NCBI GenBank assembly: GCA_947179485.1
Contig: OX359249.1
Coordinates: 51,409,402 to 51,473,401, forward strand
Source of the DNA: Allacma fusca
Lineage: Eukaryota > Arthropoda > Collembola > Symphypleona > Sminthuridae
Direction of reading: 5' to 3'
DNA: 64,000 bases
Position numbers and translations under genes: made by a program. Numbering within the stretch: the stretch's first letter is position 1; each line of letters begins with the position of its first letter. The notes below the pieces were generated by a model that worked only from the letters and a program-made list of their open reading frames with translations, searched no databases and had not been told where the DNA came from. Positions 7,522-62,347 of the stretch are shown piece by piece.

Positions 7522-9055
7522 TAGAGCATCTCGGGCGGTTAAAATTTGCGGGTAAGCCCGTAAAAAGCCCGGCCTGCCCGGGCTTTGGGCGGGTACGGGT
7601 AAAATTTATTACGCTTGAAGGGTTACGGGCGGGCATACCTGGGCGCACTCAGGAGGCATGAGGTCATGCCTCGCACTCACCTCGCACTCTATGCACTCAA
7701 AATTACCTCTGAGTGCGAGTGCCAATGTAACCGTCATGCACTCAACTTAACGAGGCCGATGTTCTTTCAATAAATTCTATGTTGAAGAGGCAGAGGCTGA
7801 GTGCAGAACATTGCACTCTGCACTCCGCTTAGTTGACGGATGTATTTTTCAAAATTAGGTGGAGCAAGTGAGTTGTGTGCACTTCTTTCTACATTTAGGG
7901 CAATTTCAAAATTGAGTGAAAACGGAAGGAAAAAACAAGCGAAAGAACCTTGTGAAGTCGCTAATTGCTAGTCCAAAAATTAAGGTACGCAAGTTAGCTA
8001 GTGTGGCAAAATATGCAAACTTTTTTTTATAAATCACTATTTTAAGGTTTTTAAAAATTGTCAGCGCTGACCTAGGGGATGTACCCAAATGGGTAAAATC
8101 TCCAAAACCACACTGAAAATGTGAAAACAGGTGGATTGAGATTTGTGGCCCGAATGTAGGAAATTAGTGTGGAAAGCACCTAATATCCTGAGTGTTTCGA
8201 CTTCCGAATTAATCAGGAAATCAGAGTTTATTCAATCTAGCCATAAAATTATATCACTCACTCAGTGGTGCAAGAGGGCTATGAGTGCGAGTGCAATAAT
8301 TTGGTAGAGTGCTTTGAGGTAGGTGTTTGAGTGCAGTGGTTCAGAATTCATGAGTGTGAGCGCGAGGGGAGATCAAAGGTTCACCGTTGTAATTGAGTGC
8401 GAGGTGAGTGCGAGTGCATTGTAAACGCCCAGGTATGCGGGCGGGTACGGTCTTTTCAATGCGGTTAAAAAAGACCGCGAAAGCCCATAAAAGCCCGGGG
8501 AAAAAATTCATGAGTGGTGCATGCAGGATCAGGGGTTGTAAAAGTACAATGACTTGAATACATGGAACGATTTTCAAACATTTGTAATTTTACCTTTAAT
8601 ACAAATTCTTAACATTCAATGTCAACAAATTCAATTACAGGAAATAACCGGAAAACCGCATATTTGGAAAACATTTAAACAAACTGGTTGACTAGGTTTC
8701 CATAAATTATGTGAAGTGCAATGAGTGCAGAAATATTTTAGTACGCAATCGCGCCAAAGAGGGACATCAACTCTGGCCAAACATAATTGTAAGAATTCTG
8801 CAGTGGAAGCAACCCAATTGCATTAAAAAAAAAGTCGAAAATGCAAAATTGAATAAGCAAAATTTTTCTGGGTCTATAGCTATGGATTTACAAGTTGAAC
8901 TAATATTAGCGGGCGGGCTACGGGCTTTTTTAATTTTTACGGGCCGGGCCGGGCTTTATCGTCGAACTTTAATTTCGGGCAGGGCGGGCACGGGTAAACA
9001 TTTACGGGTCGCGGGCGGGCACGGGCCTAAAATATCCCACGGGGGTGATGCTCTA
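7522..9055. mobile_element. hAT-like non-autonomous element with CGGGC-word arrays
   Basis: Termini are TAGAGCATC at the left and GATGCTCTA at the right, flanked by a perfect 8-bp duplication CCTTGAAG (7514-7521, 9056-9063), which is the hAT signature. The first ~120 bp and last ~150 bp are packed with GGGCGGG/ACGGGC words. No transposase is seen. The middle is occupied by a second element (7638-8433). Confidence 0.88.
7638..8433. mobile_element. Nested element with GAGTGCGAG arrays
   Basis: It begins CCTGGGCGCACTCAGG and ends GTAAACGCCCAGG inside the preceding element, with TA on both flanks and the host array continuing on each side. Both ends carry clustered GAGTGCGAGTGC words (as GCACTCGCACTC on one side). 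The 8-bp terminal match CCTGGGCG is short, and the low-complexity host makes the target duplication ambiguous, so the superfamily is open. Confidence 0.6.
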
Positions 9056-9063
9056 CCTTGAAG

Positions 9064-10409
9064 ACTGAAAGTTGTAATCTGTATGAACTTTATTATATTA
9101 TTCACTTAATTTGAAGGTGTCCACAATTCAGTTCTTATAGAAAATCTGTTATTACATAGAACCTCTCTAATTATAACGGACATATTTTTATTTTTAAAAT
9201 CTTACTCTCCTGATGTAATATGTGACAACCTTTATTATGATAAACTCTAATAATTAATTATTATTATAAACTACTTTGTACTGCATTTGTAAGCATAACC
9301 GCGAAGGATTATATGGGTGCTGCCAGGCGCGTAGGCAGGAACTGGCCAAGGGGGGGCAACATTAATTAGAACGTACATAATATGACACATTCAATGGGAA
9401 ATCCAATTCACGAATGTAAAACGCATCAAATTTTGCAAACTGAATTTCAGTTTTATATTCTCCATCACATTCTCCTCTCTCGTTTTACGATTCCATCAAA
9501 TTTGAATGATTTTGGACTAGATTTTCAATTGGGCTTGATCCGATTTCGGAGAATTTCGAGACCTGGGTTCGCTCCTATCGTTTCAGCTGGTGCTTAACCT
9601 ACTGTTCATGTGATACGTCCTTGATTCGAAAAGAAACTGCGGATATCAGGCGTGCTTGACCTTTTCATAATGAAGAATTAAATACAATTCACTAATTTAA
9701 TAATAAAATTCTATCCAGCTTAAAAATTCCCTCGAAGCGATGCGTGTAACTTACAGAAGCTAAAAGCTCTTAATATGAAAATATTTAAAGCCGCTTACCA
9801 TACTTTTGTTGCCGTTGAATCTTGAAGTCGAATAGACGAGGCAAAAAAAAAAAATCGGGATTTCGCAATGCATTCAAATCACCCGCTAAGCAAGGATGAT
9901 GACAATAAAAATATACTCTAGAATCACCCAAAACGTACAAATGACATGAATTAAAAATGAAACCAGCTAAAGATATTAAAACATTTGAAAAACTTAAACA
10001 ATATTTATTCTTCGGTGTCTACGGCTGTTTTAAAAATTTGTGATGGGGGATGATTCAGAAATCAGAAGAAGACCGACCGAGAAGCGAATCTGACGGCGTT
10101 TTACTCGCAAGCTGGGTCGGGCCCTGTCAACTGAAACCCAGCGGGCTGCGGTCTGGCGCGGGCATAAAAAGTTACTATCGGGATGGGGCGGGCCGACGTT
10201 TCAGAGGTTGACTTTCGGGTCGGGCGGGCTGGGGTTACGTAATTGTAGGTAAGACTCGGGTTGGGTTGGGAAATGGCCTGCGGACCACGCCTTTATTTTA
10301 CACCTCAGCGAGTATCCGCAGGACATTGGCAGTTGGCACAGCTTGTAACATTGGTGTAATAGCTGCGAGTGAATGCGATGCGTATTTTAGCTTCGCGAAG
10401 GGGAATCAT
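9064..10409. other. Intergenic; a possible hAT end and a GC-rich word cluster
   Basis: A single possible hAT terminus (CAGGCGCGTAGGCAGG) occurs near 9327 without a matching partner. Near 10100-10280 a cluster of GGGCTGGG, GGGTCGGG and GGGCGGG words interrupts AT-rich DNA. It looks like a decayed end of another array-bearing element. No gene is supported. Confidence 0.4.
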
Positions 10410-11699
10410 ACATGGGCACCCTCACGAGGGATTGAGGGATGCCTCGCCCTCTCCCTCGTCCTCGCCCTCACAAACTGCGAGGGTGATGGCGAGTACACGT
10501 TGATTTTAGGCGCCCTCATGAACATGAGGGAGAGGACCTATGAATAGGATGTGAACGAAAGAGGGGGAGGCAGAGTACATATGTAAGCCCTCGTGACCTT
10601 CTCTTACCTTAATCGTTATGCGAAAATCATACATATACATATTTTTCTGTAGCAAGACCAACTTCATACCGTCTTAGGTACCTGGTTTATGGCCCTGTGC
10701 AAAAATCCCAGTTTTAATTTTTAAAAGTAAAAGGTCCTCTTGTTTAGGTTAAAATTTCTCATATTAAACTCCAGAAAAAAAATTCATTTTAGGATTTCGG
10801 GGAGACATGATCATTTATAAACAAGGGCACCTGGGCTTTATATTTGATAAATGCTGTTTTCAGACCCTACTATTGAATATTACTGGTATGAGGTTATAGA
10901 ACCTATTTGTGACTAATCTTTATTAACCAAAGACGTAGAAAACAGCTTTGATCAATAATAGTCATTTTCTGAGCTACTGAATCGATTATAATGAAGAATT
11001 ATTGTCATAGACCAACAAAAATGTTTTTTATAACAAAATATAGTAGTTTGATTACTGAATGTTTTCCATTTTCGCGACAATTAAAATATAAGGAAGTTAT
11101 GCACTTTGTACCGATGAATTAGAATTTTAAACTTGTTTTTCACGTTATTTTCAGGACAAAATCGAAAGAACATTGTAAAATTTTCAAGTTTTTTATACTT
11201 TTTACAATTTTGTCAATCACGAAACCTAGTATGTACCTGTACCCTAATACCTGTGTATAACCTGCACCAATAAAGGGCACTATTTTGAATACAGTAGTTT
11301 ATTTCAACAACAATTTTTTAAAAATTTGTTTTGAACGCTAGGTTGTAGAAAATTTTATAAACTTTGTAAGCTATCCAAAAGTTCCGTACGTTCAGAACTG
11401 GGGGGAATGTCGACACATATTGAAGTTGTCATATTTTAACCAAGTGTCAGCGAAAAAATTATTTGAAGGCAAAGGTATTGTAGTAAATTGTAGGGGGATT
11501 ATTTACGTGTAATATAAAATAACGAGGGCCCTCATGAGTGCGAGGGAGAGGGATGTGTTTTAAAAGTAGCCCCTCACGAGGGCGAGGGCGAGGACAACCC
11601 GTAACGTGTTGCTCGATTGATGACGAGGGAGAGTGCGAGCAGGTTATATTCCATCCCTCGCACAATGAGGGAGAGGGGGAGAAAAACGCCCATCTATGA
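10410..11699. mobile_element. Non-autonomous element with CGAGGG/CCCTCG arrays
   Basis: Clusters of CTCGCCCTC/GAGGGCGAG words occupy about 10420-10560 and 11520-11690, around an AT-rich centre. The identical 10-mer GGGGAATCAT flanks the unit (10400-10409, 11700-11709). Termini share ATGGGC/GCCCAT a few bases in. The flanking repeat may be 8 bp (hAT) or 9-10 bp (Mutator-like), so the superfamily is unresolved. Confidence 0.7.
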
Positions 11700-11871: not shown

Positions 11872-12847
11872 TAGAGCTTCCTTCGGGTTTCCGAAATCCC
11901 GAAGTTCCGTGTTCGGAAACGGAACGGAACAATTTCGGAACATTCTTTTTGGTTCCGTCATTGAATCGGGACAAAACCGGAACATGAGCACTTGTACCGG
12001 TAATATTGGGACCGGGACTGTTCAGAGCATCGGTACGAAAAATGTCTCATATAATTTATGTCATCGGAAAGCGGAATCGTTCTGTTCCGTTCCGAACCGA
12101 TCCCGGTACAATTTCTGAAGTGTCGCGCCATCGTTCAACTAGAATGGAAACACCTTTCTTATCGCACTGGCTTGTAAGCAGTTTTTTGCCAAAATAACGA
12201 AATTGGATGAACACAGATTTAATTTACGCAAGTGCTTATATGTAATGCGAGTATCGTTTTCCATGAAAATCAACAGAATAACTAATTTGTTTAATACACA
12301 TGGACATGGGCGATTTTTCTCGAAATGAAAATTCTGAAATCGAAATTATTACCAGCAATGAAGCAAGCTTGCAGGAAATTAACACTGTTAGGCCATTGAA
12401 ATCCACACGCTACAAATATTTATTGCTAAAAAATAATTAATAATAATTATATAATACTGCACAGTAGTTCTTTTCATATGGCCTAATTATTATTAAATCT
12501 TATTTTATATAATTAAATAATAGCATTCCCTAGCATCCAATATATTAAAAGTATATCCTGTATATTAAGTTGCCAGTAATTTGTACACGTATTTCACGTA
12601 TATGTTGTGAACAATTCCGGGATATTTCGGAACGGAACGGGTTCGGAACGGAAAAACTAGCATAATACGGAACGGAACACAACCTGTAACGGAAAAAATA
12701 CTTTACTCCTTTGTTCCGAACGGTGTCAGTTCAAATGTTCCGATGTCCCGACAGCCGGAACGGAACCGGGACCAATATTATTTGTAGGTTTCGGAACGGA
12801 ACGGAATTTCCTACGGAACAAAAATGTTGAACACATTGGAAGCTCTA
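11872..12847. mobile_element. hAT-like non-autonomous element with TTCCG arrays
   Basis: Termini TAGAGCTTCC / GGAAGCTCTA are flanked by a perfect 8-bp duplication CTCCACTC (11864-11871, 12848-12855). The left ~240 bp and right ~250 bp are dense in CGGAACGGAAC/GTTCCGTTCCG words, with an AT-rich centre. No transposase frame is seen. Confidence 0.9.
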
Positions 12848-13712: not shown

Positions 13713-14437
13713 TCCTAAAAATTTATGAGTTAACGAGGAACAAATTTAAAATGTCATTTCTGGTGATAAAACAAGAATTTCATGGGATAAAAAGTCATTG
13801 TTTAATTGCTCTCAATTTCCAGAAACCTTAAAATATACATATAAAATACAAATAAAAATACCATGAGTAACTTATTAAGATACAAAACAAAATACAAATA
13901 TCCAGATTAATTTTGGCTAGATACGAAATAAAATATGTTGCTTCCAGCAAAACCGAAAATACGAAATGAAAATATTTTATTTTAAATACAAAATAGTTAT
14001 TGCAAATACTTTCAAAATCTCAAAGTATATATTTGGGATGAAATATGTATCTCAACTTTATTCTCTGAAAGTATCTTGGACAATTTGCCCACAAATAATT
14101 CGATATCGATAAAATATTCAGCAAACTTAAGAAAACAGGAACGTGATTAGAGTTTAGATTTGTGCATTTGTGTAGATCAAAGTAGATTTACATAACCCAA
14201 GATACATAATGTTTTCCTCAAAACGAATAACCTTATAACTCCTGGGTAATTGTTTTTATGTATTTTGTATTCGCGTCGCCAATTTACATAACTTTATAGC
14301 CCTCACATACATTAAATTTTGTATTTATTCAATAAGTACTTCATCCGAGCCAGAGATATTAAAGGATTGAATTCAAAATGTTTCATATTAGAACTTTTAC
14401 CTTTAAAACATTTATTTGGACATGTGTTACACACAGG
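13713..14437. other. AT-rich stretch, nothing recognised
   Basis: Contains many AAAATACAAA-type words but no gene or element border that I can support. Confidence 0.35.
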
Positions 14438-14505
14438 GGTGGATTTACGGGGTGGCCCACCCTGGCCAGAGTCAAATATTTTAGGGCCAGGGTAAAAAAA
14501 TTAAC
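14438..14505 (+). mobile_element. Fragment of small hAT-like MITE
   Basis: The sequence around GGGGTGGATTTACGGGGTGG, then GGGCCAGGGT, matches in reverse complement the right end of the MITE at 31244-31396. The rest of the element is not recognisable. Confidence 0.55.
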
Positions 14506-14669
14506 GAAGGCCCTTAGATTATAAAATACCTTTAGGCTATAAAAATACCAAAAATACAAAATACTGAATGTATTTCAAATACTATTTCAAATAGAATATT
14601 TAAAAATATTCCACACGTCTTGATTTTACACAATAAAGTGTGTACAAATACCGGTATTGGTATTCATTC

Positions 14670-15523
14670 CAGAGCTTCTGCAGGGGACAAAATAATTGTT
14701 CCCATGTCGTATTCGGGACGGGACGGGGACAAAAATATTGTCCCCATTATATTCGGGAAGGGACATGCTTTTTGGTCGTGTGTATAACGGGTCGGGACGA
14801 GCAAGCATAGCAGAACAAGGATAACGTTTCAGCTTTTAATGCTCATGAGTAAACTATTCTGTGAGCACTATTTCCCCGAATGTTAAACATTCGATTTTAG
14901 GTTGTAGAAAATGAAGCTTATTGCTCAAAAAGTGACTGGTACTTCATAATGGTTTTATGGTTATGATTGTTAGATTTTGGCATTAGAGCGAATAAAGACA
15001 AGATATACAGTGATTTTCTATTTAGTGGTTTCCTCTTAGACATCATTCCCTTTATATGGGCACGTTTAAAATTTCCCTACGATTACATTTACGTTACATT
15101 GTAGTAAGATATAGTGGCATCCCCATATTTTGGCAGGTATTTTGTCATCCCTTGGGAACCACTATATAGAAAATTCACTGTATATTTACAATCATAATTG
15201 AAGTAATTTATCATACACAGTATTTGAAAACGGATTCGAAACTTGAGTGACAGAATAATTTTGGTTACAGAAATAGAACAGGAATAGAATTGTAATAATA
15301 ATAATTATTGTTGAAATATAACCTTAATTTAAGCTGCCTTAAGGAGGAATCTTGGAACTACGATTCTATGTTTGGTAAGAGAATGTCGACAACTGTTTTT
15401 AGTAATTTTCGGGTCGGGACAAGAATTTTGTTCACATGCCCGAATTTTCGGGACCGGGGACGTTTTTTAAAAATTTTGTGGACGGGACAGGGACATGGCT
15501 TTTGTCCCCATGTCCCGCTTCTA
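14670..15523. mobile_element. Array-bearing element with GGGACA words
   Basis: The left ~150 bp and right ~130 bp are full of GGGACGGGACA/TGTCCCC words in mirrored arrangement around an AT-rich centre. Ends CAGAGCTTCTG and (reverse) TAGAAGCGGGAC are related but imperfect. The 8-bp flanks ATTCATTC and ATAATGGT match at only half the positions, so the borders are approximate and the insertion is probably old. Confidence 0.5.
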
Positions 15524-18639: not shown

Positions 18640-19495
18640 CAGTGGTTGGACTTTGATTCATCAATACCATACTCTAGTGCTTTTTTTGTACAGATAACTT
18701 TTCCTGTACTGTGCTTTACTATAGCCTGGATATGATAATTGTTTCAATACAATGCTTTATTTTTACAAGCACATCAAAATATGTTTCAATACACTGCTTT
18801 ACTACACTAGTTATGCAAAACTAGTCATCAATACTCTACTTTACTCTACTAGTTTTACATGAATAGTTATCAATACTGCTTTACCCATAGCAGTACGTAT
18901 ATACTCGTCAATATTGTATTAATAACTAGCACTATTCTACTAATATTCTGAAATAGAAGCTGTTTCTATATTTTCTTTTTCCAAGCCAAGTTTCTAACGT
19001 AATATGGATTTAAATTACTCAGTAACATTTATTGTGCATTTTTAATAGATTTGCCCTCCATTACTTGGGAATTAATAGCTTAAAACTTATTTATGGCTGA
19101 ATATTCTGCATGTAGCTTCTCAGATTCTTTCAGATTTACAACAATAATCACAAATATGGTCCTTTCATACTGCTTTCGTTTGTCGTTTTAATGTCGTATG
19201 GTAAAGGTCTGACGTAAGTAGTTCGCCCGTAAATTTACGAGATGGGGTCCTTTGCGTGTATCAATAATTTGCTGTACTTTACATGAATTTGTAATATTAT
19301 AACAGTACGTTGCTTTGCTTTACTTGTTTTTATTGCTATAGCGGTTTTTCAATACTGTGCCAATAGTTCATGTTATGAATAGGTATAGCTACTGTACTCT
19401 GCTTTATTTACGAAACATAATGATAATGCGTTGCTATAACAATGCTGTACTTTTATCAATACTGTACTAAAAAGTACAGTACAGTCCGACCACTG
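18640..19495. mobile_element. hAT-like non-autonomous element with CTGTACTTTACT words
   Basis: Termini CAGTGGTTGGACT / AGTCCGACCACTG (one mismatch) are flanked by a perfect 8-bp duplication CTTGCATC (18632-18639, 19496-19503). The body is sprinkled with CAATACTGTACTTTACT-type words, most densely in the first 270 and last 240 bp. No transposase is present. It is inserted next to, and probably within, the left arm of the foldback at 19504-21545. Confidence 0.92.
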
Positions 19496-19503: not shown

Positions 19504-21545
19504 AGGTTTAAGTTTAAGAATAAATAATTAGTCTTACAAGTAACCTCGCCGCATGCGCACTCGGGCCCAGAATGAAATTTTGTATGTGCTTAGATAGCTG
19601 GTCTAATGTCCCAGTGCGGACAAAGTATGGGGGCATCTCGCCCTGGGTTGCGCGGGAAATCAATTCGTCCCTTGGCCAACTAATATTTTCCAATGTTAAA
19701 ACCCGTAATAACTTTTCATTTTCAAAAGTTGGTGAAGTAAGGTCATGTACGCTAAGGATGACATTTTGGCATGCATTCATCATTTAAAGAGTTCCAAGGC
19801 TCACATACTAACCACTATTGGTTACCATTAGATTCTTTATATAAATTCGGTCAATATTGGTCCCAACCTGGATACCCAGATGTCCTGATTTTACCTAGGG
19901 TCACCTGGTGAGCTTGAATTTAGTCCTGATTTAAAAGTATGGCACAAAAATATCCGTTTGTAACATTGTTACGTCGAAAATTGGTCATTAATTATCATAA
20001 AGTCCCCGGCTTTAATAGTTTAATTTTGAACGGTTTAATTTCATAAAGATATAAATAGTTAAATAACACTGAAACGTATCTGATTTTTGATTTTTAAACT
20101 CACTTACAATTAGAATTTGAGAATCGAATAGGCTGGGCACCCTGGCCCCAACTAGTTTCCTCTCCAATGATCATCCATACGAAGCTTATACATAATATAA
20201 ATTAGAGAGTTGCCAGGAAAGTATTCCTGGAATATTGACCAATCCGAGGCAAGAAAACTTCTGTGATGAATGTTTGCAAATATGGGGCAAGAAATCAGCT
20301 GCGACCAATATGCACCAATTTGAGACCAGGAAAAGCCTGTGGTCAATGTTAAACAATTACACACCATGAAACCAGCTGTGACCATTATTGACCAATCTAA
20401 GACCAAGAATCCAGTAATGAACAAGGTGAGCTTATCTAAGCCCAAGAAACCAGCTATGATGAAATTGAGTCCAATGCTGAGTACAAGTTCAAGTAGAACA
20501 TGGGTATTTCAAGTCATGGTCAAGTTAAAATATTATTATAACTTGAGCATTCAGGACATGATCAGGAAATGTTTACGGATGACCATGATACTTGAAGTCC
20601 AGTAAGCGTCATGGTCAGGCTGGATATTATTACTTGATTGTCAAGTCATGTTCATGGTAAAGTCTGGTAATGTGAAAACTTGACCATAAATATTACATGT
20701 ACATATTCAAGTAAAATAAAGTTGCGCTTGTCAAAGACACGGCGCAAAAACTTTCAAAATAGCACTTTGCTACTTCTTATTGTTTTATTTTTCAAGTTTC
20801 AACTCGTGCTCGGGATGCAAATTTGGCTGCAATTAAATTTGCTACCTGTTGTAACAGCATGCGTTAATAGTATTTGCTTCAATGTGCTTCAATTTGATAA
20901 ATCTCTTTTAGATAAAATTTTGTTGCATTTTTAACTATCTTAAACTGTTATAGTTTTGAGAACATCTAAAAACAAAAACACATATCGTGTAAGTTTGGGT
21001 CAAGTCATGATCAAGTAATGATGGCGTAAAAAGTACTTGACTACTTGACCATGAAATTTCAAGTAATCACCTGAACATGAGTCGCTATGATTCAAGATGG
21101 CATGAAAAAAATACTTGACTTTAATAATCAAGTCAAGTTCATGATTGGAAACCAGTTTGTGGTATTTTCCCAGAAAGTTGCTTCTATCGAAAGAACTGCC
21201 AAATATTGACTAATCTGATGCGAAGAATCCAATGGTGGTATGGTTATACTGGTTAGTATGTGATCCCTGGAACCACTTATGATGAATGCATTCCAAAATA
21301 TCTCATTTAGCGTACGTGACCTTACTTCACCGACAAGTTATTACGGGATTTAGCAATGGAAAATATTAGTTGGCAAAGGGACGAATTGATTTCCCACGCA
21401 ACCCAGGCAGAGATGGGCCAAAACATTGCCGGCGCTGGGTCTTGGGCCAGCTATCTAAGTTCATACATAATTTCATTCCGGATCCGAGTGTGCATGTGGC
21501 GAGGCTTACTTGTTAGTAGCATTGGATTAAGATTTAAGACTGCCC
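19504..21545. mobile_element. 2-kb foldback element with ~300-bp arms
   Basis: Left arm about 19504-19830 and right arm about 21240-21545 are inverted copies. Shared blocks include GGGAAATCAATTCGTCCCTT, CCAACTAATATTTTCC and CACATACTAACCA. Arms are diverged but collinear. The interior (about 19830-20480) repeats a degenerate ~60-bp unit around TTGACCAATCTAAGACCAAG. No transposase frame is recognisable. Outer borders are uncertain because the hAT unit at 18640-19495 interrupts the left side. Confidence 0.75.
20488..21145. repeat. Array of TCAAGTCATG words inside the foldback
   Basis: Clusters of TCAAGTCATG/GTCAAGT at about 20500-20700 and 20995-21140 bound an AT-rich centre. This is the same layout as the array-bearing elements elsewhere in the window, and probably a nested member. 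I could not define its termini or a target duplication. Confidence 0.5.
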
Positions 21546-23665: not shown

Positions 23666-24261
23666 TTTTTAGGGTGGCGTCAGCCCACTAGTAAAATAGC
23701 ATTGTCTGTACGTCCGTACGTCCGTGTGTCCCTCCGCACGATTACGCAAAAACAACTAAACCGATTTCAATGAAATTTTTTATGGGCATTACTTGTATCA
23801 AAAGTAAGGCTGAGTTCGTATTTGGTTGAAATCGGCCGGATAGTTTTTTCGAAAACAATTCTTGAAATTTTCGACTATATATCAAATGACTGTTATCTCT
23901 AACACTACTGAATCGATTTCAATGAAACTTTTTGTGAATATTGCTTATGTAAATAGTAATGGCTACAGCATAAGACGTTGAAATCGCCCCGATAGTTTTT
24001 TCAAAAAATATTCTTGAAATTTTTGACTTTATGTCAAATGACTGTTATCTCTAAAACTACTGAATCGATTTCAATGAAACTTTTTGGGAATATTGCTAAT
24101 GTAAAACGTAATGATTACTGTCTATTTGGTTGAAATCGGCCCGATAGTTTTTTCGAAAACAATTCTGAAATTTCGAAAAAAACGAAACGTTTTCCTACTT
24201 TGAAGGCCGCGGCTGACGCCACCCTACGCGAAGCCTCAAATTATCGCGTAGCGATGATTTT
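23666..24261 (+). mobile_element. Helentron-like element with central 151-bp tandem repeats
   Basis: Begins TTTTTAGGGTGGCGTCAGCC. The complementary GGCTGACGCCACCCTA lies near the other end, followed by a hairpin formed by CTACGCGA and TCGCGTAG and the end GATGATTTT. Between them are about three tandem copies of a ~151-bp unit that includes GATTTCAATGAAACTTTTTG and ATCGGCCCGATAGTTTTTT. Subterminal inverted repeats, central ~150-bp tandem repeats and a 3' hairpin are the layout of HINE/DINE-TR-type non-autonomous Helentrons. Assignment to that group is inference. Inverted copies are at 33670-34071 and 34162-35060. Confidence 0.7.
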
Positions 24262-24471: not shown

Positions 24472-25464
24472 CAGGGTGAAAATGCCATGGCATTTTGGGC
24501 ATTTTCAGTTCATGACATTTTCGGCATTTTTGGCATAATACGCGTAGGGCAGGCATTTTGGGCATATTCAATCATTTCTTGGGATACTTCTGCCTGGACC
24601 TATTATTTTTTAAGGTAAATTTCGATACATGTTTTGTTTGAACCAATGCAAATATCTTTATAATTGCATACCTGAAATTTCATTAATTGTAGCGTGCCTT
24701 GATTCATAATACTAAAATTTTTGTTATCATTATTTTAAATCTCATCCCATTTTTTTAATTTTAACTTGAGATTTAATCACGATACCTCGAATCAATGACA
24801 ATATTAAGCTTCATTGGTCAGACATTGGTAAAAATAAAATGTTGTGTAATTACTTTCATAACAAGCGGTTGGATTATACCATAAACTGACGTGCTCGCAC
24901 GAAAGTTTAAAAGCCTCAGTGGAGGTAGAACGGGAATTATCCAAATGTAGTACCAAAACGTGTATTGCTCTCGACAACGATGTGACCAAAGAAATCGCTT
25001 TAAGTTTGCAAGAATCAGCGTTGGTCAAATCATTCTCAACAAAGCCAGAACCGAGTTCATCAAAACAAATTAGACATGATTATCATGTGTATAAAATATC
25101 CCTGCAATCCCCGAATTGGAAAACAATATTTTAGATGACGACGAAAATTATAGTTTTACTTTTCACGAGTCCGAAGTTGAGTTGATGTTTAGGATATTGT
25201 TGAATTAGATTAATAATACACAGGGGAAGAAACGATACAGAAATACTAACAGTTTACAAATTGCTATGCTTCAGATTAACTCATTCTGTAAAATGCATAT
25301 TTTTAAATGACGTTTGACATTTAAAAAAATCTTTAAACAAGAGCGGTAAATAATGATTATTTACAAAAAAAATCGAAAATGCCCAAAATGCCGGGCATTT
25401 TGAAAGTTGGCATTTTCAAGCGGGCAGGCATAAAACCGAGGGCATTTTCATTTGGCCAACCCTG
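24472..25464. mobile_element. hAT-like element with AATGCC/GGCATT arrays
   Basis: It begins CAGGGTGAAAATGCC and ends TGGCCAACCCTG. Flanks ATCATATT (24464-24471) and CTCATATT (25465-25472) agree at 7 of 8 bases. Ends are packed with AAAATGCCC and GGGCATTTT words. A 71-codon frame at 24919-25134 (+) is of unknown meaning. End fragments of the same family occur at 38512-38632, about 55060-55113 and probably 52195-52370. Confidence 0.85.
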
Positions 25465-37676: not shown

Positions 37677-37678
37677 TA

Positions 37679-45358: not shown

Positions 45359-48300
45359 ATGAACAGTGAAGTAACTAATTCCCGGTCTGCAGAAGCTGAC
45401 AGTGATATTACGGTGGAAGAAATATATAGGGAGGAAAGTGTTTCAGCTGAAGATGTTTCGAGTAAAAACCTAGTCGTTAATTTGCAAGCAAAACCCTCAT
45501 TTCTTCCTGTAGCGCCTGTATTCACAAGGAAACGTAAATCAGGTCACATTAAAAATACCTCAGTAGTTCCAGAACCTGTTCCACCAAGTGTTACGAATGT
45601 TCACCAACTTGAGTTGCCTACGTTTTCGGATCTCACCCAACGCAAGAAGAGAAAATGTGAAACCGGTGAGGCGCTTATTTAATATAAATGTTTACAGTTG
45701 CCCGTATAATATTTAAAAATGAACTATTCTACATTAAAATCATTCATTCAATTTCAGACGCCTCTTCAAAACTAGTAAAGATCCAAGGCGGATCGTTTCA
45801 AGAACACGCGGATTCCAAAACCATAGTTGGCGAAGTTCAGGCTTTCAATGTACCTTTGGGACCGCAACTGTTGAGTATATTTAGATATTGCTTTCATGAG
45901 GTTACGGAATCATCGCCAGGATCTGGGGTGTTTGTTCCAAATCACAAGTTCAGATCAAAAAAATCGAAAGTCAGCAGAAGAATGGTTTTCCAGGGAAACG
46001 AACGTGTATTAAATGGGGTACCAGAAATTCGATCAGATCCAATCTTATTCGACATGCCGAGGTAATTATTAGGTTATAGTTTCATTTCTGGTGAATGTCC
46101 AGGAAAAATACTTGGTGTAATTTATATACGCTCTGGTCGGGAATACATCTGATGTTGTGTTTTAGAAAGGTTACTTTTGTCAATTACAATACAAAGTTTT
46201 ATTGTTAATTTTATATTCAATTAATTGTAAAGCACTACATTAAATATCTAATATGTGCTTTAATTATTTAGTCTGCACACTCCACCCATTGGAATTCGTT
46301 GCAATCGAAGAGTGAAAAACAACTTGTACTAACTTCTGAGTCGTTTTTGAAATCCCAGAAGGATAAATACGATGCTAAGCATCCCGCTCAGTTGCAGTTT
46401 GATAAAGATGTTGTCAATTTTATTGCCATGGACTCCGTTCCTTTTACAATAGTCACTGGAGATGGATTCCGACAGCTCGTTAACAACAGAGACAAACGAA
46501 TCACAATTCGATGTGCCAATACATATGCAAATAAGCTTGAGAACACAAATAATACCAAGGTTAGTCTGGAAAAGAATAATCGATGAAGAAACATTCGCTA
46601 AATAATGACCATCACAATCTATAATATTTTAGATTCTACCCAAGCTAGAGGCATTTGTAAATTCATTTATTTCCGGAACTTTAATACTGGATATATGGTC
46701 TTCAAAGAGAAAAGATTCAGTTTTGGGCGTAAAATTTCGAGCAATTGATGACAACTTTCAGCCCCAAACACGAACCATTGGAATAATTGAGTTTAACAAA
46801 CAACACACAGGGGAGGCAATACGTAGTGAGTTCAACCAGCTCCTGGAAAGGTTCTCATTGCACGAAAAGGTATGACAAACAATTCAACTATAATACATAT
46901 AATGACGATTATGTATATATTATTTGTTCACGTGTAGGTTTCACACGTTTGCGTTGATTCTGGAGCTAATATGCTGAAGGCGTTCTGCCCATCACTGTTT
47001 AAACTCCCTCTACAGCCGGATATTGTCATTGATATTCAGGATGAGAAGATACTGGAAGCATTGCAAGAATTTGAAGAACTTGATGAAGTCAAATCCCGAA
47101 GGTCTTTACAAATTACGCCCAATGACTTTGACGACCTCGAAAGCGTCATTGATGAGGATGAAGAAATGTTTTTAAATAAATTGGCAACACTACTGCAACC
47201 AAATGCCGTTAGAGTAACCTGTAACGCACATCGCCTGCAGAATGCCATCAATTATACTCTAAAACATGATGCCGAATTAAAGGATTTTTGCGAGTATATT
47301 TCATCAGTTAATGGTTTCTTTTGTAACCGACATCAATTTGCGAATCAATTGAAGGAACAAGCTGGACGAAAAACTACTAGGCAGAACGCTACTCGTTGGA
47401 ATTCTTTCTACGATTCATGTGTAATTCTTAATCAGGTAGAAAATAATTAACCTACTCATTAACTTCATTACAGAGTATGTTTACTTTAAATGTGGCCGAA
47501 CTTTCGCCGGAAATTAGGAAAGGATTTTTGCGCAATCGTACGTTCGGATTATTTTTAATTGATGTGCCTAGTTTTGTTCTCTTTAACTTGTCCCAAAAAC
47601 CAGCAACGTTGTTACCTGTATCTACGGGATTTACGAAGTTACAAATCAGTATTAAAAGTATCAAAAAAGTTGAGAATATGTTTAGTGTTCTGGACACGGA
47701 AAGTATTTATGAGTTAGTATAGTATAAAATCGAAGGTCACGAAAGACCACGGGCGAAATACAAACTACTTTTCTTCCGGGTAACTTTGGAAACAAACAAA
47801 ATGAGGCAACCGTTGATGTATCTGTGATCAAATTGCCGATGGAAAGATTGTACATAATTTGATGAGGATCAGAAAATAAAATCCTACATAAATATTGAAT
47901 TAGATCCGTTGTATTCTCAATAGAGAAATCGGAATAAAAATTTCCGGAAGTATTCCGAGATGTCCTGCACTGGTATTCGGTCCCAAACTTTTCTCTCAAT
48001 TTATCTCTTCGAAATTTGAGATTAAATACGGTCACGTTTAGAGTAAACATCAACAGTATTCGTTTTTAACGAAATTCCTTTGTGAAATTTTGGTGGCATG
48101 ATCGCATCGTAATAATATTTTTAAACACTTAGGAATCTGTGTTTCATTCAGCGAAGGGGATTCTCAAGTCTGCTCTCAGTAGCAACGTAGGTCCTCGTGG
48201 AGGTGTAAAGAACAAGCACATTCCACGCAAACTAAAATCCGAGGACAAGGAAATGCTAGAAGAATTAGTAACATTTCTGGCCCCATTCGCTACAACTACG

Positions 48301-49149
48301 GACCTTCTACAAGGAGATTATTTAACATCAAACTTATTAATTCCTAAACTTCGTGTCGCATTTAAACGTGTGTACATTATTTTATTATAAATTTTGGAAT
48401 TTAAAGGCTAGATTTAACGTAACGTTGGCGGATTTTTTTGTAGAATTAGCTGCAATGGAACTGAAGTTCTTCAAAAAGGCAAAATATCTGCTTTTGAATG
48501 AAATCAAATCCAGATTCGAGCCAGTATGCAAAGAGCCTGTTTGGATTTTATCTGCCGTTTTGGATCCTCGTTGCAAGTTGGATATTTTCCCTCCAAGGGG
48601 TATGTATTTATCGATTTTATTCCCCAATATGATATTATTCCTTAGTGATTTCTATTTGCTTGTGTTTTAGCGTATTCGGAAAATTTGACACAAGAGCAAC
48701 TGCGAAACACTCTTATTCTGCCTAGCCGAGAATCGGTGAAAGAACTTTGTGAACTTTATTTTCGAGAAACCCTATCTTCCTGTACATGGATTGAAACGGT
48801 CGAAACACTTTCAGAAACCAATGATATGTATTGCGTAGATGAGTATAGTGTTCATGTGAGTTCAACTCGACCGATTACTGAATTTGAAAAATACATTTTG
48901 GAGCCAAGAGCTAAAAGTGATCAAGCTGGAGATTGTTTCTCTTTGCAAACCTACTGGCAAAATCACCGGCAAAGTTTTCCATCTTTGTATAGTCATGCAA
49001 AAGTGTATTTGGCTGTACCAGCATCAACTGGAACTGCGGAACGCTTATTTTCCAAACTGATTAATATAGGTCGTGCTCGTAGAAATTGTTTAAAATGTGT
49101 TAGATTTGAACAACTGGTTTTCTACCAAGAAAATGATGCATTTGTGTGA
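45359..49149 (+). CDS. hAT transposase, eight exons
   Basis: Cut-and-paste DDE transposase of the hAT superfamily, acting in the nucleus on its own ends. Exons inferred from GT-AG sites and phase: 45359-45665, 45758-46061, 46272-46559, 46633-46869, 46938-47435, 48133-48367, 48444-48599, 48671-49149 (about 830 residues). Exon 4 holds LILDIWSSKRKDSVLG (first catalytic Asp). Exon 5 holds VSHVCVDSGANMLKAF (second Asp), VTCNAHRLQNAI (the CxxH motif) and ATRWNSFYD. Exon 6 holds LVTFLAPFATTTDLLQG. Exon 8 is a classic hAT C-terminal dimerisation domain with TYWQNH, FPSLYSHAKVYLAVPAS and TGTAERLFSKL, whose Glu is the likely third acidic residue. No BED zinc finger is evident in exons 1-2. All joins keep frame except exon 2 to exon 3, which is one base out at the obvious sites (46061/46272). 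That is either a disabling indel or another acceptor. Intron 5 carries an inverted-repeat insertion. AATAAA lies at 49173-49178. Confidence 0.88.
47477..48050. mobile_element. Inverted-repeat insertion in transposase intron 5
   Basis: Ends ATGTTTACTTTAAATGTGGC and (reverse) ATGTTTACTCTAAACGTGAC form ~22-bp inverted repeats with about three mismatches around a 574-bp unit. Without it the intron would be ~123 bp, in line with the others. No clear target duplication. The facing open frames both starting MFTLNV are an effect of the inverted ends. Confidence 0.7.
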
Positions 49150-49454
49150 AAGATTGTGTTGAAACCTGAAAGAATAAATGCACAATATGTTTTGATTTGA
49201 AAATGAGTAAGTATTACTTGAGTACAATGCAGACAAGAGTAAGTAAAGAGTAAGTAATATCAGGTCATATTTTCGAGAATGTAAGTAATGAGTAAGTATC
49301 ACGCTCCGACTGAAATTTTGAGTGAGTACTGAGTAAGTAATATAGTTACCATGAAGCCCGTGAGTAAGTAAAAAGTAAGTACGGGGTATCATGAGAGACA
49401 AAATTATGAGTAAAGAGTAAGTAATGGTGTCTAATTGAGAGCACTGTCCAAAAC

Positions 49455-52678: not shown

Positions 52679-53760
52679 TAACGTTCAAAGAAAGCATACA
52701 GTTAAATGCACAATTCAGACATTCACGAGCTTCAGTGGATATTAAAAGACAATACCGTAAAGATTCCAGTAATTCAAGACTACATGATTTAGAAGCGTTT
52801 GTAAAATTCAGCGATGAAAATGAAACCCTCAAAATCGTATTCATTGTTGGTGAATCTGCTTTTCTTCATGACACAATACTGCAGCTCAACATGCCCTGCA
52901 AAAGTAGGTTTTTTCTGTCATAATCATTTTTTGCCTTTTTGCTTCGCTCCCACCGCGGTCAGTAGATCAGTGCTCTCAATTTTACTCATTACTCGAATTT
53001 TTCATAAAGTGAGTAAGTGAGTATTGTACTTACTCGTACTTACATCTGCGAGTATGAGTAAGTAATGAGTAAGTAATTTTAAAAAGGTTGATGTTTAAGT
53101 AAGTAAAGAGTAAGTACGAACACTCATTCCCCAGTGTAATGTAAGTAATGAGTAAGTAAGACGAAATGCAAAGTATCAAAAAGTAAGTATTGAGTAAGTA
53201 AACTCTTCTTACTGGAGTAACTACCATAGAAAAAATGTTCTCCGACAATGTCCATGACTTATATATGGCTTATGGAGGCAGATAACACAGGCCATAGGCA
53301 AACAATGCCTTTAAATACTTGCGACGATGCAACTCGTTAAACTTGACTCGTTGACTATACACTAACAAAGATGGGAGTGATGTGAATTATATTTGAAAAT
53401 GAGTAAGTATTACTTGAGTACTATGCAGGCAAAAGTAAGTAAAGAGTAAGTAATATCAGCTTATTTTTGCGAATAAGTAAGTAAAGAGTAAGTATTACAC
53501 TGCGACCCGAAATTTTGAGGGAGTAATGAGTAAGTAAGATAGCCACCATGAAGACCCTGAGTAAGTAAAAAGTAAGTACTGGACATCATGAGAGACAAAA
53601 TTATGAGTAAAGAGTAAGTAAGGGTGTATAACTGAGAGCACTGCAGTAGATCATCTTTTAAAATCCATATCATCCCATGCAAATCATATGGCAATTCCAG
53701 TAGGGCTAACAATGTTCAAAAAGATCAGAAATGGTAGAGACGTGGCAAACTGGATGGGTA
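52679..53760 (+). CDS. Partial unrecognised gene, two exons
   Basis: Exon A about 52679-52905 follows an acceptor (TTTTATAG) and ends before GTAGGT. It encodes a charged stretch with IKRQYRKDSSNSRLHDLEAF and then LKIVFIVGESAFLHDTILQL. Exon B starts at 53647 after CAG and, joined in phase, continues IDHLLKSISSHANHMAIPVG, then LTMFKKIRNGRDVANWMG, to a possible donor (GGGTAATG) or an in-frame stop near 53769. The intron now contains the 676-bp hAT derivative. Frame agreement across the junction is the main support. I do not recognise the protein. Further exons on either side are not identified, so this may be a host gene fragment or part of an older element. Confidence 0.4.
52968..53643 (+). mobile_element. 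Internally deleted hAT derivative, 676 bp
   Basis: Starts CAGTGCTCTCAATTTTAC and ends GAGAGCACTG. It is flanked by the perfect 8-bp duplication CAGTAGAT (52960-52967, 53644-53651). The left ~420 bp match the left end of the full-length unit through the GAGTAAGTA array to about 45303. The remainder matches its right end from about 49193. The deletion removes TATA box, all exons and the polyadenylation signal, leaving a miniature that could move only in trans. Confidence 0.95.
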
Positions 53761-54037: not shown

Positions 54038-56036
54038 CAGTGCTCGGACTGGGTACAGAAACCGTTTACCCGTACCCATACCCGTACCCGAATATCGGGT
54101 ACTACAAAATGCTGTACCTATACCCGTACCCATACCCGAGTACCCAGGTAAATTATTTCAGTACCCGTACCTGAAAATACAATGTAGTACCTATACCCAC
54201 AATTTACCCATACCCGTAATGTACCCAAAACCTGTACCCGTACCCGAGTATCTATTGTGTGTACCCGGGTATTACTCGGGTACTGGAAGTTTGGCCGATT
54301 TAAAATCCCCGACGACATTAGCCTGCCCAGCTGAAATAATTTAATTTGTCAATTTTTTGACCTCCATTAAAAGTGTCCGGGATTTTGGGAATTTTCCCTA
54401 ATTTCCCCTTAAAGACATCCTATTTGAATTTTTTGAAAAAATTATTTAAGGCATTTTGTGATTTTTTTAATAAACACTGACGAAATTCAAATCCTACTAC
54501 CCCAAAATAATAACTTGCTGAATGAAATGAAATGTGTTCTCGCTAATTGGAATTGGGACGGATTCTTTAATACTAAACTCTCCATAACTTGCTTTTCAAC
54601 TTGGAGAACAAGAAACAATTTTTTTTACCGCTAATCGTTTACGGCTAATCGAACACTGTGTATAGAAAATGTTATACGGAAAAATTGAGTTGATCATAAC
54701 TTTTCCAAGTCAAATATTGCGGTTTCAGGAAATAAATGTGGGAGGCAATATTGAATATTCATTTTATATTACAGCTTTATAAAACAAACATTCGTAAACT
54801 GTCTCTCAGATTTATGAAGCCCGAGACGGAGATTTTCGAAAAATGCAGGCAAAATAGGACTAAAATGCAACCCCATGGAAGTTTTGAACGCCAAGTTCAG
54901 ATGTCTGTCAAGTTCTTTTAACATCAAAATTATCAATATTAATCAAAAGGACTGAAATATAAATATTGCGTGCAAGGAATGATATTTTTCATTCTAAAAT
55001 GTTATAAATATTCACCTCAATAAATACTCAAAGTGTCATAAATACCCAGAATTGAAAATGATCAAATTGCCTGCATAAAATGCCTTGGCGTTTTCAAATG
55101 GGCAACCCTGGGTACTTGTAACGTTAATAAATGGATCTGCTAATAAATGTATATTTATTCCGATCTTATCTCGTAATACGTCTTCAAATAATTGTAATGT
55201 TACGCTCCCAATGAAGCTAATTAAATTAAATCCCAAGAACCTCCCCCTTGAAATTCTTCGTTGATGAGCTTCACTGTTTAAGTCGATAAACAGATGATTT
55301 CATTGACTCTACGCTCTATTTCTTTATTAGATTCCTTGGATGAATTATTAGAAGCGTTAGATTGCAACTACCACGCAATCATAAATGAGACGAAGCCACT
55401 TGGCTCTGTCACTAACGCAAGTATCTGTAGATGTAGATATACAAAGAAATAAGCAACTCCACGGTTGGTAGGTCTTATTGTTAGCCATAATAATCCATCC
55501 CATCAGGAATCCTTGAAGTACCCAAAAATACTCGGGTACAGCACCCACGAGTACAGGCATTTTACATAGTGATACCCGTACCCACTGGGTACTACCCGAT
55601 TGCCACTGAGTGAGTACCCATACCCGTACCCGTACCTGTACCCACTTTATTGCCTAAAATCAAGAGTACGCGGGTAGTACCCGCGTACTTGCGAGTACGC
55701 AACTTCTGTACCCGGGTAGTACCCATACCTGTGCCAGTACCCATTTACCCGAGTATTACCCGTGCGTTCTCAACGGGGCAGGCAAGTATCGTAGGGTTTT
55801 TCTAATAAGCCAAAACCTTCAGTACCCGGGTACAAACAATAGATACTCGGGTATGGGTAGAGGTTTTGGGTACATTACGGGTAAATTTTGGGTACAGGTA
55901 CTACATTTTAGCTTCAAGTATGGGTACGAGTACTAAAAAAATTACCCCGGGTACGGGTATAGGTACAGCATTTCGTCGTACCCGATATTCGGGTACGGGT
56001 ATGGGTACACGGTTTCTGTACCCAGTCAGAGCACTG
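54038..56036. mobile_element. hAT-like element with GTACCC arrays
   Basis: Termini CAGTGCTCGGACTGGGTACA and (reverse) CAGTGCTCTGACTGGGTACA match with one mismatch over 20 bp. The arrays are mirrored: CCCGTACCCATACCC on the left, GGGTACGGGTATGGG on the right. They occupy about 54050-54280 and 55560-56030. Flanks GTAAGCAG and GTATGAGC agree at only about half the positions, so it is old. The centre is AT-rich and includes an AATGCC-family end fragment at about 55060-55113 (ending CAACCCTG). No transposase. Confidence 0.85.
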
Positions 56037-57711: not shown

Positions 57712-59136
57712 CATAAGAAGTGAATGAACCTCTGCTCGGTAGTAATCCTCTCTTCTAAGTTGAAAGAGTGGATGGTGACCGTGATGGTAAGATTCAAATT
57801 TTCGCGCGCGCTAGATGTATCGAGTATCGACGACCATATCGCTGTGCAGCTAGCTATTGCATACAACTACTTACTGCCTTCGCTATTTACATTTGCCTTT
57901 CTGAACCAGCAAATGCTGGCTGTGTAGTGCTCTTCCGTATAAATTAACCGCAACTTTCTGTATGTGGCTACTGTTAAAGTAAGCGCGCAAAATTTAGGCG
58001 TACAATAAGTCTCCACGACTGGGCTTGATTCGTAAGCCGTTCAGCCTCTACTCTACACTTTCTGATGTTATCTCTTAATTTAAAGTGTGGCGCGCTGCGC
58101 GCTCATTTTACGGGGCAACTACGATATCGTATACAAAATCGAATGTTCCGAATTACGATAACCGTCCCCGGATTACGATAACCGTCCCCGACTTCCGAAT
58201 TACGATAACCGTCCCCGGATTAGATATTACACTATTTCGTTGCTGGGTAGTTTGTTTAGGAACAGCAACAACAATTAGCAAGCCGTAATCAACCCATCTT
58301 TTTTATGAATCAAATTTACGATTTTACCAAATTTGCAGAGCTAGAAATTTGCATGGCAAATCTGCATTACTCCTGACACATTTAAAAAACTTATAAAATG
58401 CCCACACGAATTCGTCCAATAAGTATTGAGATAATTTATTAATAATAATAAATAATAATTGAGGATGAGGAGATAAAAGTGGGACGATTGCTGAGAAAAT
58501 TGTAAACTAAGATACAGTGACGGGGTCGCACATAGATTTTTTAGATTTGAATGACAACTGTTAATATCAATTAATTTTAGGTATTTTTACCATAATAGTA
58601 AATTTTGGTTTCCGAATAATATTTCTTAAATATATACCAAAAAATGAATTTCGCGTCAATTGTACATATAACAGGTACGTGAAACCACTTTAAGAAACCC
58701 ATTTGCATGGTTTTTTGTAGTACCCACCATGTTTTTACAGTATAAAAATTTATCGTTCATATCGTTCTTCAAAATCCATATCGGGAATTTTTGAATAAAC
58801 GATAACGATATTAACGAGAGTCTAAAAATGAACGATAATATCATGCCTAATGTCTATACTGTAAACCGAAGCCAGCTAGGCGAAGCTTCTTTCGAGTCGA
58901 AACCACTCCGACTCTCCTGCATCGCTCTGCATTTTCAACGAGGATTTTCAATAGTATGTGAATTTTCCTGGATATGGTTGAGCTTACTTTATAAGTGGGA
59001 ACAATTACAGTATTACGCTTTTGAGAAATTTGAACACAAGGAGAGGATTATGTAACGGTACAATGTTAATATATAGTTAAGAACTTAGCTAATAACATCA
59101 TCCATGCTGAAATATTGACAGGAAGTGCTCAAGGTG
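57712..59136. other. Intergenic; palindromes and small repeats
   Basis: GC palindromes (TTCGCGCGCGC near 57798, GCGCGCTGCGCGC near 58089), ATATCGTT/AACGATA words near 58740-58850, and the 20-bp tandem repeat listed separately. No gene supported. Confidence 0.4.
58152..58218 (+). repeat. Three copies of a 20-bp unit
   Basis: ATTACGATAACCGTCCCCGG at 58152 and 58199, and the same with final A at 58172. The third copy is preceded by a 7-bp spacer. Confidence 0.92.
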
Positions 59137-60969: not shown

Positions 60970-61861
60970 TACTGAAACTCCTGCAAATATGTCTTTCTAT
61001 GTTTATAAACACATATGCGGACTTTTATATAATTTATAGAAGAAATGCAAAACTCCTTGTCACTTCCAAAGTATTTAGCATGCAACCGTTTATATCAGCT
61101 TCACAAATTAAAAAGTATAAATATTAAATTAAACCTTGCCAGTTTCAGTTTTTGATATTTGGTTGTCTTAAATTGGCATAACTGTTGAAGCTCTGGGTCG
61201 AATTAAATAAATTAAAAATATTGTTGTGTTTCGATTTCCGAAAACTGACCAACGATTTTGTGGCCAAATATGATTTCACTCTATTGTCACCTGCGTGTAA
61301 AAAATATTCATCATATGGATCTTCATCTGTGCTTCTTTGGAAGTCCTTTAAATTCGCAACACACGAGCTCCTATATTTTGTGCGATTAGAGTAAAAAAAT
61401 TGAGCAACAAAATCAAAACTTTCAAAATTTGAGTGCTTGCCAAAAAATCTTGACTTCCTTTATAACTGTATCGAGTTTTTGAGCTTTGAGGATACAACAA
61501 ATTTGAATAATCTGGAATTAAATTACATAGGAAATGTGGGAATCGAATATTTTCTTTACTGTTGCCCCTCCTTGGACAAGGGTGAAGTAAAATATAATTT
61601 AAAGCACTCTGCTCATGCCGCGTCGTGTAAACATACGCTTGACAAACAATTTGTTTTTGTCAGCGAATGAATTTTTCTGTTGGGCAAAACATTCGTGCGA
61701 TATAAAATCTTCCATGTAAAATTTGTATTCGTCGGGTTAAGCCTGTCGTGTGATACTTCGAATCTGTGCAAAATTATTTGTCGGGTCAAAATCTGTCGTT
61801 GGGTGATTCAGTATGGAGTGCATTTAAACATACCCCTTTAACGACTAAAACATTTTAGGCA
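60970..61861. other. Intergenic with dispersed repeat copy A
   Basis: The part from about 61552 to 61840 (TGTTGCCCCTCC, CTGCTCATG, CGTCGTGTAAA, then several AATCTGTCG words) recurs in the same orientation at about 63206-63480. No gene supported. Confidence 0.5.
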
Positions 61862-61869
61862 CTTACCAT

Positions 61870-62347
61870 TAGTGTTTCTGTTCGGTATCGGGAATTCCCG
61901 AGGTTCCGGTTCGGTTTCGGGTCAACGATTTAAAGAACCGTTAAATTTCGGTCCGGTTTCGGGTCAACGGTTTAAAGAACCGTTACTTTCGGTCCGGTTT
62001 CGGGTACAAAAATCAAAACCGAAAGTTTTCGGGAAGCGTTTGTTAAAGCTGCCTTTTTGGATGAAAACGCACAACATGCATTTGCCAAGCATTTGTCAAC
62101 TATAATTTGAAAACGCGACACAATTTTGACTTCCATGAAAATGAATCCTATGCATTTTCTGCCTGTTCGGGAAGGAACCGGAACCGATCCGGGAACCGAT
62201 TTTATTTTCCGGATCGGTTCCGGGAAGGCAAAAATGTCCCGGACTCGAACATATCGGTTCCGGTTTCGGGAACAGCAAAGGGATTTTTTTCGGTTCGGGA
62301 AAACGAGTCGGTTCGAGTCCATGTTTTTGGACCGTTCAGAAACACTA
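61870..62347. mobile_element. hAT-like MITE with TTCGGTTTCGGG arrays
   Basis: Termini TAGTGTTTCTG / CAGAAACACTA are flanked by the perfect 8-bp duplication CTTACCAT (61862-61869, 62348-62355). Both ends are dense in CGGTTTCGGG and GGTTCCGG words, leaving almost no spacer. 478 bp, noncoding. Confidence 0.93.

Follow-up and report, generated by a model that had tools for sequence, protein, structure and literature searches.

The stretch of DNA considered here, termed the window, comprises 64,000 nucleotides of the genome of the collembolan Allacma fusca (GenBank assembly GCA_947179485.1, contig OX359249.1, positions 51,409,402 to 51,473,401 of the forward strand) and houses a series of hAT-like transposable elements, each of which carries at both ends many copies of one short word. 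The initial annotation of this DNA had listed eleven such units, which are referred to in the following by their start positions in the window. The short terminal inverted repeats (TIRs) of hAT elements start with the consensus YARNG, and a scan of the window for ends of the form YARNG...CNYTR, with an exact 8-bp target-site duplication (TSD) and at most two mismatches in the eight terminal bases, returned six end pairs, being five of the units annotated initially and 52968-53643, a sister of 44895. A YARNG left end is found in 11 of 14 units, the non-fitting ones being 31818 (TAAGC) as well as 7634 and 10407 (both CATAC), and a CATA start is also seen in the transposase-bearing elements L021 and L025 found elsewhere in the genome. 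The 8-bp TSD, described initially as the usual case, is exact at seven of the eleven listed starts (7522, 11872, 18640, 25999, 31818, 44895 and 61870) and at the added units 52968, 7634 and 10407, matches in seven of eight positions at 24472 and is poor at 54038 (four mismatches ungapped), and none was found when looked for outward from the starts 14670 and 35840, both of which are filed as hAT by terminal repeat and arrays only. The AT-rich centre likewise holds for part of the units: GC content is higher in the ends than in the centres in 12 of 14, with a gap of about 0.02 or less in 18640, 24472 and 35840 and a slight reversal in 44895 and 52968.

The first unit, a non-autonomous hAT-type element at 7522-9055 (TIR TAGAGCATC, TSD CCTTGAAG on both sides, word CGGGC), is interrupted within its CGGGC array by a nested hAT-type element at 7634-8437, which possesses a TSD of its own (CGGGCGGG twice), a perfect 12-bp TIR (CATACCTGGGCG) and the word GAGTGC and which is absent from the initial annotation, as is the hAT-type element at 10407-11698 (TSD AGGGGAAT twice, TIR CATACATGGGCAC/CATAGATGGGCG, word GAGGGC), whose terminal repeat and word are like those of the transposase-bearing elements L021 and L031. 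Further hAT-type elements lie at 11872-12847 (TSD CTCCACTC twice, TIR TAGAGCTTCC, word CGGAAC/TTCCG), at 18640-19495 (TSD CTTGCATC twice, TIR CAGTGGTYGGACT, word TRCTTTAC), at 24472-25464 (TIR CAGGGT, the seven-of-eight TSD ATCATATT/CTCATATT, word AATGCC), at 31818-32764 (TSD TGTGTGAG twice, TIR TAAGCATGAGATCGGTT, word GGTTCGG), at 35840-37008 (TIR TAGTGGTCGGA, word CRATTCA) and at 61870-62347 (TSD CTTACCAT twice, TIR TAGTGTTTCTG, words CGGTTC/CCGAAA). The element at 25999-27236 (TIR CAGTGCCTGTCATGGGAAC, word GTTCCC) shows the TSD GGTCAGGG twice, a single additional C being present at the right junction, and at 26440-27235 it contains a 397-bp tandem duplication (99% identity) of part of its centre and its right end, resulting in two consecutive right ends. 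Paired GGGACA arrays at 14670-15523 end in CAGAGCTTCTGC and TAGAAGCGGGACA, the right boundary being uncertain, and the element at 54038-56036 (TIR CAGTGCTCKGACTGGGTACAGAAAC, word GTACCC) has ends which are inverted copies of each other, with 76.6% identity over 299 bp. All of these are given without strand. Additional array pairs were identified at 13801-14700 (AAATAC), 20401-21200 (ACTTGA) and 58101-58900 (ACGATA), and no TSD was found at these three.

One unit carries a transposase. At 44895-49446, on the plus strand (TSD TCCAAAAC twice, TIR CARTGCTCTCAATT), a gene of several exons is found, the last of which (48649-49149, plus strand) encodes the hAT C-terminal dimerisation domain hAT_C (PF05699, E 2.7e-14), a place also found by the genome-wide profile search described below. 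At either end of this element most copies of its word, GAGTAAGTA, are on the coding strand, and a miniature inverted-repeat transposable element (MITE) of the same family, with the same TIR and word and the TSD CAGTAGAT twice, is located at 52968-53643 (no strand assigned). As hAT_C was seen in no other unit of the window, the others were taken as non-autonomous.

For twelve units the arrays were assessed by scoring the best 6-mer common to both ends against non-element sequence, in which 300 placements were made for each unit. The shared 6-mer was never equalled in eight units, and for the remaining ones P was 0.003 (14670), 0.010 (61870), 0.023 (18640) and 0.030 (7522). End densities of the listed words range from 2 to 56 per kb, as compared with 0.0 to 1.4 per kb outside elements, and nine of twelve units have none of their word in the centre, the exceptions being 7522 (2.9 per kb), 25999 (8.1) and 54038 (8.0). 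While dense words at the ends thus stand as annotated initially, some had been given as over-long repeat units, ATTCAATTCG being found twice and TTCGGTTTCGGG once in their elements, and CTTTACT, a part of CTGTACTTTACT, four times; the working units are shorter and degenerate. De novo motifs obtained by expectation-maximisation were blurred, partly palindromic and of low information and were dropped for 6-mer spectra. After trimming of the terminal 22 bp, left-end spectra ranked the element's own right end first in 18 of 21 elements and that of a same-family member in the other three (52968 with 44895, L015 with L016, L018 with L017), hence an own or same-family end in 21 of 21; the mean own-end cosine was 0.374 (lowest 0.234) versus 0.091 (standard deviation 0.035, highest 0.319) in 200 non-element pairs. 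A multi-copy word is consequently concentrated at both ends and private to each family. Together with the TSDs and the hAT_C domain of 44895, this bears out the hAT-like guild with private end-array words that had been proposed, and the placements, the end matching and the densities exclude for these units that the arrays are random repeats extending beyond element ends.

The genome (392,743,791 bases in 91 contigs, the window being part of a 55.6-Mb contig) was searched for further transposases with the PF05699 profile, which gave 150 scored matches out of 860 candidates and none in 14 control genomes. From the 150 loci 33, given L-numbers here, were fetched as a non-random sample consisting of the best-scoring ones, thinned by eye. 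The hAT_C domain lies within ends flanked by an 8-bp TSD in 13 of them (L010, L011, L014, L015, L016, L017, L018, L021, L025, L030, L031, L039 and L041), and the words of these delimited elements are TATAGG, TAGAGG, GAAGG, AAGGC, GAGGG/GAGCG, GAGTTC, CGGATA and GTATG. In the other 20 loci no clean TSD-flanked end pair was found, several of them showing arrays on one or both sides; L022 (word TAGGA) belongs here and was placed by arrays and terminal repeat only. First end pairs proposed for L012 and L025 were rejected as spurious, L025 being later placed anew. Arrays of the L017 type are missing from some loci, such as L024, where positions 4837 to 7081 contain long hAT-like open frames that include a BED-like finger and no array was seen in the 10 kb, perhaps representing a domesticated gene. 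Three equal-scoring hAT_C matches 9,813 bp apart at G000:C8:28181777-28201633 suggest a tandem triplication with a hAT gene. BED-like fingers align in many of the loci. That all words are served by one transposase, named initially as a possible refutation, fails for the 11 families which bear a transposase and in which both ends could be placed (L022 by arrays and TIR only).

Copies of six window families were searched by their left ends, and the best 40 of 96 to 1248 candidates were scored for each, the own place included. Apart from the latter, end copies among these best 40 are 96-98% identical for 54038 (1248 candidates), where one element may yield two end copies since its ends are inverted copies, 95-98% for 7522 (first 111 bp as query), 91-99% for 61870, 90-93% for 31818, 89-93% for 18640 and 88-90% for 35840. 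For 54038, an identical score is reached by 26 of the 40 scored places, which have one 269-bp variant in common and thereby point to recent spread. Locus L009 holds a copy of 11872 (96.5% over 981 bp) and L033 an internally deleted copy of 44895 at 97-98%. L042, which matches only bases 1-280 of 18640, was rejected as a transposase carrier, being a deletion-derived MITE, namely a shortened form of 18640 flanked by an exact TSD (ATTGTTAG), in which an internal deletion left both ends and their arrays in place. In L022, at 3495-7691, a MITE of the 35840 family is apparently host to the nested transposase-bearing hAT with the word TAGGA. The pairing of each family with an autonomous transposase, suggested initially as a check, succeeded for 44895, and no partner was found for ten of the eleven listed families; when the 40 copy places of each of the six families were compared by eye with the 150 hAT_C places, a few lay 3-9 kb apart and none was convincing.

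The relation between word and transposase was approached among the transposase-bearing elements, with word similarity expressed as the cosine of the 6-mer spectra of the ends and compared with protein identity by Mantel and partial Mantel tests. The word is unchanged in pairs with 93-98% hAT_C identity (cosine 0.89-0.97) and related in six pairs at 64-77%, aligned over at least 89 residues (0.29-0.44), and the 55 pairs below 40% have a mean cosine of 0.105; the pair L022-L031, with 66% identity over 67 residues, reaches only 0.09. Across 11 families hAT_C identity correlates with word cosine (r 0.43, p 0.010), which is not the case when the element centres are used as a control (r 0.02, p 0.46). 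For the 12 elements with a readable BED-like finger the correlation with the word is r 0.51 (p 0.0003) for the finger and r 0.25 (p 0.039) for hAT_C. The partial test leaves the finger, given hAT_C, with r 0.45 (p 0.001) and hAT_C, given the finger, with r -0.03 (p 0.54), with 9 to 12 elements of common descent underlying the correlation. These data support that the word goes with the transposase and most closely with its BED-like finger, and the question raised initially, whether DNA-binding domains diverge with the word, is answered affirmatively for these 12 elements.

Close relatives document how the word changes. The ends of L025 contain GAGTTC 14 times, GAGTGC 3 times and GAGGGC not at all, those of 7634-8437 contain these words 0, 17 and 1 times, and those of 10407-11698 0, 2 and 8 times, the kinship of the three resting on terminal repeat and word, as two of them are MITEs. 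Likewise, TAGAGG is found 14 times in the ends of L011 and once in the right end of L013, where TAGTGG counts 6 as opposed to 1 in L011, and between L037 and L039, which have the terminal repeat CAAAGCTGGGCGCATAYC in common, GTAGG goes from 19 copies to 2 while GTATG counts 14 in both. Steps of one or two bases among kin hence connect GAGTTC, GAGTGC and GAGGGC, TAGAGG and TAGTGG, and the words TATAGG, AAGGC, TAGGA, GAAGG, GTAGG and GTATG. Since sister words shift by one or two bases and the terminal repeats are similar, the word drifts while the terminal repeat is largely kept. The initial claim that the word changes completely between families finds no support in that form, as related elements drift stepwise and pairs at 64-77% hAT_C identity mostly keep a related word; as for the rapid turnover suggested initially, the pace matches protein divergence, with nothing here showing it to be faster. 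An attribution of single residues to single bases (FFNFKKH with TAGAGG in L011, FSNFKKH with TAGTGG in L013) was set aside, the two fingers being only 45% identical.

A correlation of this kind may also arise from shared descent, with the word drifting neutrally and the finger not reading it. The elements are related by a tree whose structure the Mantel test leaves in, and the hAT_C tree, with nine of 16 inner branches open, was set aside for ancestral inference; moreover, in the class of eight elements with a GWxxHxxHLV finger both partial correlations persist (finger given hAT_C r 0.48, p 0.016; hAT_C given finger r 0.41, p 0.040), the latter in line with shared descent. Over the 12 elements, however, hAT_C has no residual correlation once the finger is given and the finger keeps one once hAT_C is given, and neutral drift would not be expected to keep the many copies within an element alike. 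Shared descent as the only cause is thus considered unlikely, though it is the alternative that survives best.

The arrays also tend towards a common layout. Of 22 families, 17 share more between their two arrays on the same strand than in inverted orientation (sign test p 0.017), compared with 53% of 400 control pairs, and the mean log2 same-strand ratio is 0.66 in the families versus 0.10 (standard deviation 0.82) in the controls, so that the bias is a tendency of the set and no proof for a single element. Three ~42-bp-period tandem repeats were reported by Tandem Repeats Finder in three families with unrelated words, at 14683-14764, 18712-18884 and 61907-62005. Same-strand 6-mer pairs 40-43 bp apart number 123 versus 45.2 expected from neighbouring distances and lie above expectation in 19 of 23 families and below in three. 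In 44 end segments the base autocorrelation peaks at lag 41 (z 4.5), and the peak stays there (z 4.4) when the four families with the most pronounced 42-bp repeats (14670, 18640, 44895 and 61870) are left out; for element centres and non-element sequence z at this lag is -0.1 and 0.2, respectively. A distance of about 41 bp corresponds to four helical turns at 10.5 bp; phasing of the words with a single helical turn of 10-11 bp was looked for as well and is weak (mean cosine at most 0.045). If unrelated words keep one pitch, this would be in line with a transposase oligomer of fixed geometry, or else with an inherited layout in which the letters changed.

That the arrays are duplication-prone hitch-hikers at the ends, with transposases reading the terminal repeat only, would explain why near-identical terminal repeats are found across families with different words, such as L037 and L039, and why some arrays contain ~42-bp tandem copies, which duplication alone could make; maize Ds1, too, is reported to be able to move without the hexamer (PMC3260210). 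Against this stand the absence of the words from most centres, the fact that they are common to both ends of an element, their survival of the internal deletion in L042 and the observation that they follow the finger more than the C-terminal domain, and one spacing for unrelated words is unexpected from independent duplications, which renders hitch-hiking improbable. Least probable is a role of the arrays in transcription or RNA handling, for which it can be said that both ends of the 15 delimited copies with a transposase have the G-rich form on the coding strand (positive GC skew, except for the left end of L025), that most families have same-strand arrays and that GAGTAAGTA resembles a 5' splice site, but the centres are mostly weakly positive as well (that of L039 exceeding its ends), non-coding MITEs retain the arrays, five families have inverted ones, the covariation is with a DNA-binding finger, and the likeness to a splice site suits one family only.

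Two further features of the window lie outside the elements described above. A tandem repeat of 151-152 bp is located at 23666-24173 and at 33640-35060, the two arrays being inverted to each other and 10 kb apart, and an open frame of 184 amino acids at 29225-29779 resembles by eye the tyrosine recombinase of a Crypton-like element, for which the Pfam search gave no match.

By analogy, the kind of system encountered here is already known, since in Ac, Herves and Hermes subterminal words are the binding sites of the transposase. For Herves of Anopheles gambiae, the motif CG/AATTCAT was described to be repeated in both subterminal regions and to be sufficient for transposase binding, a tetramer of the motif being bound (PMC3143072). 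Its core CRATTCA is found ten times in the ends of 35840 as opposed to zero or one times in the other 11 units. The BED fingers of Hermes from the house fly read AAG(T/C) subterminal repeats via S66, N67 and R70 (PMC10368747), and AAGY counts 31 in the ends of 44895 and 29 in those of 52968 versus 4-17 in the other 10 units; in addition, a frame of the 44895 gene reads SNLIRH, in which S, N and R keep the spacing of these three contact residues. Repeats 2-7 of the Hermes left end were reported as antisense and repeats 1-5 of the right end as sense (PMC10368747), which, by our own reading, is perhaps the polarity seen in the window if both ends are read from the tip inwards. Unlike the arrays described here, those of Hermes comprise fewer sites, with the inner ones partly dispensable, and other families in the window have other words. 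Maize Ac/Ds possesses many AAACGG hexamers in the terminal 200 bp, an 8-bp TSD and deletion derivatives which retain the ends (PMC3260210), all of which recur here in kind; in contrast, it represents one family with one word, and AAACGG occurs zero to two times in the ends of each unit of the window. Finally, hAT domains of the BED-plus-Hermes type (CGGBP and hAT-19 DNA-binding domains) were reported to bind diverse motifs matching the subterminal regions of their own elements (PMC8097297); there the motifs were measured across species and host genes, whereas here the words were read from the arrays of one genome. In the open-licence literature, as judged by titles and the start of abstracts, no survey of finger-word pairs inside one genome was found.

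Taking these findings together, the units are best explained as hAT elements, mostly non-autonomous, the arrays of which are putative subterminal sites of the element's own transposase with the word drifting along with the finger, a reading to which we assign, from sequence and analogy, a probability of roughly 0.8. It assumes that the N-terminal BED-like zinc finger, together with the neighbouring Hermes-type region, probably binds the word many times over, whereby an oligomeric transposase would gain the avidity and specificity needed to find both ends. The short terminal repeat would serve as substrate of the catalytic core and hence be slow to change, while diverging fingers would carry the word along, the uniformity of an array being possibly maintained by local duplication and selection. 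As in most families the arrays run on the same strand and the terminal repeats are inverted, the complex could tell the left end of an element from its right one, and the common spacing of about 41 bp would fit an oligomer geometry shared between families.

Several observations weigh against this reading. As for the finger, the exon pieces of the 44895 gene other than the last gave no Pfam match above a cut-off and none at all to zf-BED, the closest being the Hermes DNA-binding domain at a sub-threshold E of 0.048; the SNLIRH stretch of this gene lies in a different frame from the neighbouring one submitted to Pfam. Among seven genomic fingers, only that of L026, which has no assigned word, passes the zf-BED cut-off (E 1.4e-7), three being sub-threshold (E 0.049-0.26) and three without match, so that most are called BED-like by alignment only. 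For three of the 12 elements used for the correlation (L013, L027 and L037), either a single end was available or an end is truncated. In 35840 there is only one full Herves 8-mer, and no transposase of this family was found among the loci considered; moreover, since Hermes retained about 70% of its activity when inner left-end sites were mutated (PMC10368747), not every site need matter. As for polarity, five of the 22 families are inverted (54038, the clearest exception, L021, 7634, 10407 and 7522 minus its nested insert), several ratios are slight with single elements lying within the control spread, and, with dinucleotide shuffles as the background, the z for direct sharing is larger than that for inverted sharing in 17 of 21 elements, 11872 and 7522 being among the exceptions. 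The test for 41 bp was post hoc, having been prompted by the ~42-bp tandem rows, and counts related families separately; a pair at exactly 41 bp is present in 17 of 23 families, a count which 116 of 1000 jittered sets reached somewhere and which is hence not significant, and non-element sequence shows an excess of its own at lag 42 (z 3.2).

A more far-reaching and still tentative idea would be that the genome holds a library of transposases in which finger and word have co-diversified stepwise into private addresses, the sites being replaced in concert around a near-frozen terminal repeat and within a fixed layout of one-strand arrays, whose pitch of about 41 bp would mirror the oligomer, with escape from cross-use as the selective force. 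Subterminal repeats and the varied binding motifs of hAT transposases have so far been known element by element, and here many finger-word pairs occur in one genome, some of them between close kin with altered words and near-identical terminal repeats. This makes testable whether BED fingers follow a recognition code, how dozens of sites are renewed when their reader changes and whether the spacing of the sites reports the shape in which the transposase assembles.

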